The notes beneath the pieces were generated by a model. It did no database searches and had not been told where the DNA came from. It saw only the letters and a list, made by a program, of their open reading frames with translations. A program made the position numbers and the translations under genes. DNA of 36,321 bases, from positions 1-36,321 of IMG/VR virus record IMGVR_UViG_3300027868_000018; one strand, given 5' to 3'. Below are positions 18,080-21,065 of the stretch, one piece after another. Source of the stretch: a virus. Within the stretch, counting starts at the first letter, position 1. Each line of letters opens with the position of its first letter.

Positions 18080-19960
18080 TTACATTGCTCCTGTCTGCTG
18101 TAGTTTTAATCCCGGTCCTAAACTCCCGCCGGTAACCTCTGCGCTCGTTCCCATGTCAGCGCGAAGTGTGATTTCAGAATTATTCGTTGTTCGTTTTTCT
18201 TCGATGCTTCGGGCTACACGCTCTTGAGGAGTTATCATCTGGGTGTCTTGTTTCCCACCAGGTTTAATTTCATCCTCTTTGTCACCGCCTACAAAACCAG
18301 CAACAGTTGATGCAATACTCTGCATAGCGTCAAAACCGGAAAACTTTTTAACCACATTAGCAACGGCTGATATTTTATCGAATTGTCGTCCTATTACCTC
18401 CCCGATGCTGATAAAAAGATTTTTTATAGGTTCCCATGCTTTTATAACTAAAGCCGCTGCCGCTATCAAAAGACCAATAGGACCAGCCACTATTGCTGCT
18501 ATGACTTTTGCCGGTCCTGATAAATTCATGAAAGCTGCTTTTAATTCATCCCACCAGAATACTACTGCTGTTATCGCTGCTATTAAAGCTGTTATACCAA
18601 TTATAATAAGGCCGATAGGGTTCATTAACATCAAACCATTAACAACCGCTATGATCAACGCTAATGTCTTTAAAACAACTACTAACGAAGTAAATACAGC
18701 AAGTGCTATTCCAATACGTTTCGCCCATTTTACTATATTTTCGAGATTGTTTACTATTAATGTGAGAAAATCTCCAATTTTAGTAGCTATTAAATTTTCA
18801 TTAGCACTTACCCACGCTGTCATCCGGTCAACTACATCTTTAAGAGGGCCTTCGTTCATTCCGAAAATTTTAACTTTTACCGCATCAATCGCAGAACCAA
18901 GTAATAACATACTACCGGAAAAAGTATTCATTCTAAGATCCGCCATTTTCTTTGCAGATCCTGTTGCATTTTCTAATTCTTTTGTAAGTTTTTCCAACTT
19001 ACCGGTTTCGAATAACATACCTAAATTAGCCGCTGCTTTTTGACCTCTGAGTCCGACGAGTTCAGCTAAAAATGCAACTTGATCAAAATTACCACCCAGG
19101 CGTTTCGAAGCTTTGTTAAGCTGTCCGATAACACTTTGGAAAGGAAGCATATTTCCTTTTGCGTCTTTGAACGTAATACCGAGTCGTCGCATTTTCTTTT
19201 GCATACCGACAGTCGGAGCGGCCATTTTAGTAAGCATTGTGTTAAATGCCGAACCTGCAACAGAGGCATCAAGACCTACATCCTGAAGTAAAGCCACACT
19301 TGCTGCTACTTCTTCGAACGGTATGTTTAATTGTCTGGCTGTTGATGCAACATTACGTATAGATTCACCGAGAGAACCTATTGTTGAATTCGTTCGGGAA
19401 GAAGCTAAAGCAAGAACATCAGAAACCCTGGCTGCCTCGCTTGTTTCAAGTCCCATGCCTTTTAGGGCATTTGATACATGGTCTGCTACTTCTGCAATCT
19501 CTAAACCAGATGCAGCGGCGGCACTTAATATCGCAGGTGTTGCCTGTAAAATTTCCTGAGTTTTAAAACCTGCGCGCGATAAAATTTCCATGGCGTTCGC
19601 AGCTTCTGTAGCTGTGAATTTTGTGGTCTTACCTAATTGTAGCGCCATTTGTTCAAGCGGCGCTATCTCTGCCCGGGTTTTGAGGGATACCGCCCCGACA
19701 TTTGTAATTGCCTGTTCAAAGCCAGCCCCCGCAGCCACAACATTTGTAAAGGCTCCCGTCATAATAAGAGCGGCGCCTGTTACAGCAACCGCTCCTTTCT
19801 TCAAGCCTGATGAAAACTTATCAACTGTCCTATTTAATTTTTTAAAATTCCTGTCCGCTGACCGAGTGAATTTACCGACACGGTTCTGCATACGGGAAAC
19901 AGGAGCCGTTACCCTGTCAACTGCTTTAAATACTGCTTCGACACTGAAACGACCTGCCAT
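18080..19960 (-). CDS. Tail tape measure protein (TP901-like core)
   Basis: 626 aa. MAGRFSVEAVFKAVDRVTAPVSR and the following basic helical segment open the protein. Residues about 85-330 carry the TP901 core (FEQAITNVGAVS, TKFTATEAANAMEILSRAGF, AEVADHVSNALKGMG and LVGLRGQKAAANLG). A cluster of hydrophobic segments (about 415-505, e.g. MNPIGLIIIGITALIAAI) follows, as in most tape measures, which cross the host inner membrane at DNA injection. An AAGGGG site precedes the ATG. It is relatively short, implying a modest tail length. It follows the frameshifted chaperone frame after 2 nt. Confidence 0.93.
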   Translation of the reverse strand: MAGRFSVEAVFKAVDRVTAPVSRMQNRVGKFTRSADRNFKKLNRTVDKFSSGLKKGAVAVTGAALIMTGAFTNVVAAGAGFEQAITNVGAVSLKTRAEIAPLEQMALQLGKTTKFTATEAANAMEILSRAGFKTQEILQATPAILSAAAASGLEIAEVADHVSNALKGMGLETSEAARVSDVLALASSRTNSTIGSLGESIRNVASTARQLNIPFEEVAASVALLQDVGLDASVAGSAFNTMLTKMAAPTVGMQKKMRRLGITFKDAKGNMLPFQSVIGQLNKASKRLGGNFDQVAFLAELVGLRGQKAAANLGMLFETGKLEKLTKELENATGSAKKMADLRMNTFSGSMLLLGSAIDAVKVKIFGMNEGPLKDVVDRMTAWVSANENLIATKIGDFLTLIVNNLENIVKWAKRIGIALAVFTSLVVVLKTLALIIAVVNGLMLMNPIGLIIIGITALIAAITAVVFWWDELKAAFMNLSGPAKVIAAIVAGPIGLLIAAAALVIKAWEPIKNLFISIGEVIGRQFDKISAVANVVKKFSGFDAMQSIASTVAGFVGGDKEDEIKPGGKQDTQMITPQERVARSIEEKRTTNNSEITLRADMGTSAEVTGGSLGPGLKLQQTGAM

Positions 19961-19962
19961 TA

Positions 19963-20214
19963 TTACCCCTTTGGTTTTGTATGTTCTTTTAATTCTGCCC
20001 GTAGTCCGTCATAAAAGAAACGGATTTCGGAGGCTTTTAATGTTCTGACATCTGGTAGTCCTGGATAATCTCGGGTTACTTGTAATAACATTTCCGTGTA
20101 TACTGCTTGAAACGTGTTGTTACCTCCTGGAATTTTGTAATCTACCCCATGCCGTACAACGTGACATGCGACTACGCCATTAAAAGCGAGAAAATAGCTT
20201 CTGAAACTTTTACG
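19963..20214 (-). CDS. Tail assembly chaperone C-terminal extension, reached by -1 frameshift
   Basis: The -1 frame is open from just after a TGA at 20215-20217 to a TAA at 19963-19965. It encodes a plausible domain: FNGVVACHVVRHGVDYKIPG, then YTEMLLQVTRDYPG and KASEIRFFYDGLRAELKEH. There is no ATG, GTG or TTG before about residue 40 of this domain, so it cannot be a normal separate gene. Ribosomes must shift -1 between 20214 and 20172; candidate sites are A-AAA-G (20211-20207) and T-TTC (20193-20190). With the second site the fusion would be 208 aa. The layout matches the chaperone pairs (P2 E/E', lambda G/GT, Mu 41/42) between tube and tape measure. Confidence 0.8.
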   Translation of the reverse strand, partial: RKSFRSYFLAFNGVVACHVVRHGVDYKIPGGNNTFQAVYTEMLLQVTRDYPGLPDVRTLKASEIRFFYDGLRAELKEHTKPKG

Positions 20215-20588
20215 TCAATCCCAACAAATGTGGCAAATACTTTGGGATGGACTTTACACATATCTGCAAGAACCGCATACATTTTAGCAGCGTCGTGGCC
20301 TTTTTTCTTTCCGTCCATTGCCATAATTGAAGCGCCAGTTCTTTCATGAAAAGTAATTGGATCTTTATGTTTAGATCGATCATTCTGCGCTGTGTAAACC
20401 GCTTCGCCATCATCATTGAAAACTAAGGCGCCGCGTTGAATAGCAGTCATGATTTTTTTCTTTTGTGCGTTGAAACCTGTCAGGTCTTCTGCATCCATTT
20501 CAGATGTATCGAGGTCCAGGTCCATTGCCTCAACCCATTTATTAAACTCTTGTTCGGCTACTTCTCTGCTTATTAATTCTGTTTTCAT
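20172..20588 (-). CDS. Tail assembly chaperone, zero-frame product
   Basis: 138 aa, with a GAGG site 6 nt before the ATG. It is acidic and helical (EFNKWVEAMDLDLDTSEMDAED-like start, given in part; later MAMDGKKKGHDAAKMYAVLADMCKVHPK). Such proteins bind the tape measure during tail assembly and are absent from the virion. The short form ends at TAG 20174-20172; a minor product continues in the -1 frame. The upstream 79 nt contain the interlocked RNA helices, which could set the amount of chaperone relative to tube protein. Confidence 0.8.
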   Translation of the reverse strand: MKTELISREVAEQEFNKWVEAMDLDLDTSEMDAEDLTGFNAQKKKIMTAIQRGALVFNDDGEAVYTAQNDRSKHKDPITFHERTGASIMAMDGKKKGHDAAKMYAVLADMCKVHPKVFATFVGIDVKVSEAIFSLLMA

Positions 20589-20597
20589 TTTATACCT

Positions 20598-20676
20598 CGC
20601 CCTATTTTGTTAAGTGCTACGCCCGGATAATGTATCCGGTACAGGGATAGGGCGTCCCGCGTAGCAAAGCCCTGTA
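20598..20676 (-). ncRNA. Interlocking pseudoknot RNA upstream of the tail chaperone gene
   Basis: Read on the transcribed minus strand: a TACAGGG (20676-20670), CTTT, b GCTACGC (20665-20659), GGGA, d CGCCCTAT (20654-20647), a' CCCTGTA (20646-20640), c CCGGATA, loop CAT, c' TATCCGG (20639-20623), b' GCGTAGC (20622-20616), short linker, d' ATAGGGCG (20605-20598). Helices of 7, 7, 7 and 8 bp are all perfect Watson-Crick pairs, and a/a' crosses b/b', which crosses d/d'. Helix d' runs into the GAGG ribosome-binding site (20598-20595). This GC-rich block in an AT-rich gap looks like a cis-acting translational or attenuation switch. No known RNA family was recognised. Confidence 0.65.
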
Positions 20677-20681
20677 TTTTT

Positions 20682-21065
20682 CTACTGTTTTGTTAGCTCT
20701 CCTGGTCCCATTAAAGATAGTGCTGCTGTAGCATTTTGCGAACTTACTTGCATTTCACCCACAATGATTCCGGAGCCTTGATAGGTTTCACCAGACGCGT
20801 AAGTTATAGCCATCGGCCAATAATCTGTTTCGTTTGCTAACTCTTGTAAAAACTCATGATCACCCCGGCTATCATCTACTGCCACGGTCAGACCATCAAG
20901 CCCGAAAGGGACACGAGTTTTGATTATCCGCGCTGTTCCGTCTCCGTTTGCTTGCACTTCATTTTCCCACCCACCGAGTTTTCTTTGCGCTTCAGCATCA
21001 GCTGCCACGGCAAATTCTCGACCCGACAGGGTTACACTTTCAATACTTCCACCAATTGCTGTCAT
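20682..21065 (-). CDS. Tail tube protein (Mu gpM-like position)
   Basis: 127 aa. GGSIESVTLSGREFAVAADAE at the N-terminus (given without its first residues), KLGGWENEV, DGTARIIKTRVPFGLDGLTVAVDD and ETYQGSGIIVGEMQVSSQNATA are typical of short contractile-tail tube proteins. It forms the inner tube through which DNA passes. Located between sheath and chaperones, the canonical order. Length is normal. GGTAATAT precedes the start with only a weak Shine-Dalgarno site (GGCAGG). Confidence 0.88.
   Translation of the reverse strand: MTAIGGSIESVTLSGREFAVAADAEAQRKLGGWENEVQANGDGTARIIKTRVPFGLDGLTVAVDDSRGDHEFLQELANETDYWPMAITYASGETYQGSGIIVGEMQVSSQNATAALSLMGPGELTKQ

Follow-up and report, generated by a model that had tools for sequence, protein, structure and literature searches.

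A covarying pseudoknot leader at the tail tube–chaperone junction of phages, a likely regulator of tail assembly chaperone translation

The window analysed here, a 36,321 nt stretch of viral DNA (IMG/VR record IMGVR_UViG_3300027868_000018, positions 1–36,321), carries on its minus strand a tail tube gene (phrog_4699; 20682–21065) as the upstream neighbour of a tail assembly chaperone gene (phrog_4648; 20172–20588), the latter being the gene probably controlled by the element described below. The chaperone of a relative passed the cut-off of Pfam Phage_TAC_7, and Vibrio relatives carry the gp41 annotation IPR019289. Phages need tail assembly chaperones in small amounts relative to the sheath and tube proteins, whose genes immediately precede that of the chaperone in the operon; to our knowledge, how phages set this ratio at initiation has been little studied, with recoding of the chaperone gene drawing most attention. 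At the distal end of the gene, a −1 frame ORF (19960–20175, minus strand) overlaps the end of the chaperone and reaches just before the tape-measure gene, has no evident start of its own and looks like a G/GT-type programmed frameshift of tail chaperones. The leader gap, running from the tube stop codon (20684–20682) to the chaperone start (20588), is GC-rich within an AT-rich operon and measures 93 nt, as opposed to the 80 nt reported by a first-pass annotation of the sequence.

The first-pass annotation had described four perfect helices in this gap, and every arm is present exactly where it was placed, in RNA of the minus strand and thus in the same sense as the tube and chaperone genes. 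The helices join TACAGGG (20640–20646) to CCCTGTA (20670–20676; 7 bp), GCTACGC (20616–20622) to GCGTAGC (20659–20665; 7 bp, or 8 bp including 20615/20666), CCGGATA (20623–20629) to TATCCGG (20633–20639; 7 bp, loop of 3 nt), and CGCCCTAT (20598–20605) to ATAGGGCG (20647–20654; 8 bp). Along the RNA the segments follow the order A, B, M, C, B′, D′ and start codon. The 5′ arm A (RNA UACAGGGC; 20669–20676), defined from the window sequence and from an alignment of 56 sequences (alignment A2), contains AGGGC, which can pair with loop M as an anti-anti-Shine-Dalgarno (SD). Helix B is formed by a 5′ strand (UGCUACGC; 20659–20666) and a 3′ strand, B′ (GCGUAGCA; 20615–20622), assigned from the window sequence and covariation. 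Within it, the GG (20656–20657) and CC (20645–20646) of a mini-hairpin, H1, whose pairing was taken from alignment A2, display in their loop the anti-SD sequence M (RNA CGCCCUAU; 20647–20654), able to pair with D′ over 8 bp or with A over 5 bp. Hairpin C (CCGGAUA, 20633–20639; UAUCCGG, 20623–20629), seen in both the window and the alignment, immediately adjoins B′. D′ (20598–20605), identified by covariation, by its match to the anti-SD of 16S rRNA and by its survival where the element is lost, is overlapped at its end by an additional SD-like stretch, GAGG (20595–20598).

Across the alignment, the predicted conserved core is an 8 bp helix B enclosing hairpin C and the mini-hairpin with its anti-SD loop M (GCCCUA). 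Arm A is a near-copy of D′ and able to pair with M in its place. One of the four helices proved not to belong to the family structure and was dropped: the register 20670–20676/20640–20646 was observed in no sequence but the window and L001, its closest relative, and the conserved partner of the 5′ arm is instead loop M (20647–20654), with covariation weaker than that of the pairing between the SD and the loop. For the window, a 7 bp pairing of A with 20640–20646 is possible, and it would not compete with M:D′.

Relatives were gathered by tube-protein searches (37 loci, followed by approximately 80 more from viral contigs, annotated phages and two bacterial MAG contigs), and the interval between tube stop and chaperone start was inspected in each. 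More than 65 distinct relatives share the layout at the corresponding gene junction, among them phages of Vibrio, Shewanella, Acinetobacter, Pseudoalteromonas and Oceanospirillum and the two MAG contigs, with a more divergent variant in Aeromonas. Exact pattern matches among 2.9 million viral contigs numbered 16, all at the tube–chaperone junction. A covariance model (R1) gave a single good match in the window (65 bits) and one good copy per positive phage record, with no convincing second copy in the 33 phage records. Among 398 genomes from the phylum of the Shimia MAG, the model matched that MAG and none of the other 397, and no matches were found in viral contigs scanned, via the chaperone, for the Vibrio variants. 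VP16-type Vibrio phages (L122, 2385–2461; L044; L045, 2385–2459; L046) possess a structural subtype poorly detected by R1, where a larger GGCGC/GUGCC-type hairpin carries M in its loop and M pairs over up to 8–9 nt with D′ (AGGGCUGA).

Single-sequence folding stood out only moderately (minus strand, z = −2.4; plus strand, z = −0.95), and the knotted architecture scored 56 compared to a best of 41 among dinucleotide shuffles of the gap (0 of 300 as high). A score of 45 was reached by 64 of the 67 related gaps and by 18 of 335 shuffles. From a structure-blind MAFFT alignment of 67 sequences, assessed against a custom tree-based null of 20 simulated alignments (R-scape-like in spirit), the top eight covarying column pairs of about 4000 all fell in B:B′, M:D′ or A:M, with hairpin C supplying the ninth; E was below 0.05 for just two of the top pairs, so this evidence depends on the agreement of the top pairs. 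For the fold combining B, the mini-hairpin, C and M:D′ in alignment A2, 91% of cells were paired and the covariation score was 0.379 (shuffles, 0.174 ± 0.009; slid partners, ≤0.125). Compensatory changes among homologous phages, on which the first-pass annotation had staked the element, were found on both sides in 19 of the 22 pairs. B:B′ held the strongest covarying column pairs (94% paired; two-sided changes in 7 of 8 pairs), with hairpin C (85% of cells; 4 of 5 pairs) and H1 (91.6% of cells; both pairs two-sided, with few sequences involved) also maintained. G-U pairs outnumbered A-C mismatches (88 vs 23), which points to the sense RNA as the constrained, structured strand. The comparative evidence, in which sequences diverge while pairings are kept, decides that the element is real, and the covariation together with the knotted score against shuffles bears out the earlier proposal of a structured RNA of pseudoknot topology at this junction.

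The two pairings open to loop M differed in strength. M:D′ considered alone was 91% paired, with 6 of 7 pairs two-sided and a covariation of 0.227 (vs 0.095), compared to 84% of cells, 5 of 7 pairs and 0.170 (vs 0.112) for A:M. Predicted energies were comparable (A:M, −10.7 ± 2.2 kcal/mol; D′:M, −12.2 ± 2.0 kcal/mol), but swapping in a common-type A cost 1.0 kcal/mol and a D′ swap 3.0 kcal/mol. By these measures D′ is the more constrained partner of M, and the support for A:M is weaker.

In all 67 members the best match to the 16S tail (anti-SD) overlapped D′; from the final G of D′ to the start codon the median distance was 8 nt. As M is itself a generic anti-SD, the overlap of D′ with the ribosome site does not constitute independent evidence; the natural losses of the element do. 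In L062 (2981–3010), comparison with a close relative (L080, 2172–2270) identified an exact deletion between the direct repeats A and D′ that leaves one TAGGGT before the start codon, likely a natural knock-out of the element. L105 and L081 likewise retain D′ after losing the rest, and in three Vibrio phages with an inserted gene (L141, L142 and L149) only CAGGAC is left before the start. Because D′ persists ahead of the start codon where the remainder has been lost, it is very probably a working ribosome-binding site. These results support the earlier claim of mutually exclusive pairings, one of which ends on the ribosome-binding site of the chaperone.

The element was present in 66 and absent from 20 of the 86 distinct rows placed on a tube-protein tree, and those without it mostly had a short gap with a plain ribosome-binding site. 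The distribution calls for 14 gains or losses, at least nine of them forced by well-supported branches, and repeated loss would be the simpler reading given the clean deletions and the tree. The element is thus widely kept yet dispensable, since about a quarter of the tube lineages are without it and use a plain ribosome-binding site. Other structures were seen in two of the intervals. In place of the element, L002 (3373–3430) has a simple hairpin rich in GC (GGCCCCGUCGAUAGGGGCGGGGUC) together with AGGAGG, a strong ribosome site. The gap of L035 (about 1775–1930) contains a hairpin of ~20 bp with GAAACCC inside its loop, and GGGUUUC precedes the start codon; this may be masking of the same kind in an extreme form that lacks arm A.

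Several relatives separate the two genes and indicate to which of them the element belongs. The tube gene and the element are set apart by an additional gene carrying terminator-like hairpins in phage Scuro (L040) and by about 70 nt in AeroV_348 (L041); in both the element still adjoins the chaperone and keeps arm A despite the distance from the tube stop. In 1.030.O-type Vibrio phages several genes intervene and the element, lacking arm A, sits directly at the chaperone; L119–L121 have inserted DNA after the tube gene, and the element, without arm A, stays with the chaperone. As the element remains with the chaperone wherever other DNA separates off the tube gene, comparison of these genomes identifies it as a chaperone leader and not the 3′ end of the tube gene, and the insertions in L040, L041 and L119–L121 rule out a 3′ element of the tube mRNA as its main role. 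A conserved TATACT just upstream of the Vibrio variant suggests that a transcript may start there in the 1.030.O-type phages, though a promoter scan upstream of that variant returned no site at the scan threshold. The tube–chaperone interval of L119, L120 and L121 is a hotspot of small inserted genes, many on the opposite strand, including ones for homeodomain-like or HTH proteins and for NinH-like proteins in relatives.

The structure is conserved and covaries on the sense strand, it overlaps the ribosome site and it is associated with the chaperone gene; on these grounds we consider it likely that the element is a cis-acting translational attenuator that masks the chaperone SD in a pseudoknot, with A as a competitor and dosage as the purpose. 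Helix B would close a domain holding hairpin C and the mini-hairpin, whose loop M is complementary to the SD region D′. Pairing of M with D′ would create an H-type pseudoknot with B, blocking the 30S subunit and keeping chaperone translation low (the off state). In most members arm A, nearly identical to D′ and transcribed before it, could take M and leave D′ free (the on state). Such a two-state leader would keep the chaperone at a lower level of synthesis than the products of the sheath and tube genes, which are heavily translated from the same operon. A conserved alternative, knotted pairing takes in the ribosome-binding site as one of its strands, by which the masking step itself is strongly implied; that masking lowers initiation, that A raises it and that dosage is the purpose we infer from this arrangement. 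Arm A is best described as a modifier of a masking core, because D′ is under the tighter constraint and one lineage has no A. Overall, the element probably sets the amount of chaperone made.

The balance might be shifted by the ribosome, by a protein or by nothing at all. On a possible but minority reading, the chaperone (or the tube protein) would act on the knot, repressing chaperone translation by stabilising M:D′ on binding; autogenous pseudoknot operators already known have a similar topology and position (PMC3014915, PMC10931766) and the element tracks the chaperone gene, but the helix sequences vary freely and few bases outside the helices and the M loop are highly conserved, so any protein recognition would be by shape. 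The idea that the element senses a tail-assembly factor, raised in the first-pass annotation, drew no finding in its support. A ribosome finishing the tube gene might alternatively cover A and free M to mask D′, such that heavy translation of the tube cuts chaperone output from the same mRNA. In 48 of 66 members the GGG of A starts 9–13 nt past the tube stop codon (range, −1 to 18), A sometimes contains that stop codon (L015 and L084) and A:M has covariation of its own, yet a distance of 9–13 nt past the stop is, by ribosome footprints, only at the edge of a terminating ribosome, the Vibrio members have no A, and the retention of A far from the tube stop in L040 and L041 counts against this as the sole role, leaving the proposal rather doubtful. 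In those two genomes and in L119–L121 the element has parted from the tube gene and stayed with the chaperone, so the suggestion that the chaperone is tuned against the tube is only one option.

Readings that dispense with translational masking fare worse. Stable RNA structures can protect mRNA from decay, and a knot just downstream of structural genes, which are normally highly expressed, might block 3′-to-5′ decay or be cut so that tube and sheath mRNA outlast the downstream message; this is unlikely, as the element follows the chaperone start and not the tube end, no terminator-like site was found in this region of the window, and a stability element does not predict the conserved pairing of D′ onto the ribosome site. 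The SAM-II and preQ1-II riboswitches use an H-type pseudoknot with the SD as its 3′ strand, a general logic that the element shares. A small-molecule riboswitch of this type is nonetheless very improbable: the element places hairpin C between M and B′, matches no Rfam riboswitch, was seen only ahead of one phage assembly gene and, with few positions of ≥80% identity outside the helices and the M loop, has no invariant unpaired core of the ligand-pocket type. HDV-like and theta ribozymes of phages are also compact multi-helix pseudoknots; such a fold was excluded, as the strand order A-B-M-C-B′ has neither a P3 helix nor a J4/2 catalytic strand, the strand lengths in alignment A2 leave no space for P3, hairpin C directly abuts B′ and no Rfam match was obtained. 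The GC-richness of the gap in an AT-rich operon might suggest a DNA-level feature or chance inverted repeats, a reading given almost no credence as it is refuted by the covariation, the knotted topology, the excess of G-U over A-C and the fixed relation to the start codon.

The first-pass annotation knew of no described RNA with this layout, and the searches agree. Against Rfam 15, the window gave no gathering match, with only chance-level matches to the element at E up to 10, six divergent relatives gave no match at E up to 1, and the literature searched, a coverage that leaves out most subscription journals and preprints, held no description of the element. By analogy, the nearest functional parallels are the leader pseudoknots of T4 gene 32 and of the S4 and S15 operons. 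The gene 32 leader of T4, T2 and RB69 forms a pseudoknot through which gp32 represses its own synthesis (PMC3014915), and pseudoknots of the E. coli alpha operon (S4) and rpsO (S15) include the ribosome-binding site and control initiation (PMC10931766). In common with gene 32, the element is a pseudoknot in a phage mRNA leader upstream of a putatively regulated gene, with control of translation proposed; in contrast, the T4 knot precedes the start by ~67 nt and seeds protein binding across a ribosome site that is itself unstructured, whereas here the SD is a strand of the knot and faces a competing 5′ arm, and the gene serves tail assembly where that of T4 encodes a single-strand DNA-binding protein. 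The S4 and S15 leaders, like the element, incorporate the ribosome-binding site in the pseudoknot, but they are bacterial, are bound by ribosomal proteins and use other helices, and they are not known to have a similar competing arm. Nor is the layout of the element known to be shared by the gene 32, S4 or S15 leaders.

More tentatively, the element may represent a new phage RNA family acting as an assembly-dosage switch, in which two almost identical strands, located at the end of the gene for the abundant tube protein and at the ribosome site of the chaperone, compete for an anti-SD loop, with ribosome traffic or a tail protein deciding chaperone output. A conserved, covarying leader spread across phages of several host genera is testable with simple reporters, for which the natural losses of the element are ready-made controls, and it would add to the few known translational pseudoknot operators of phages.
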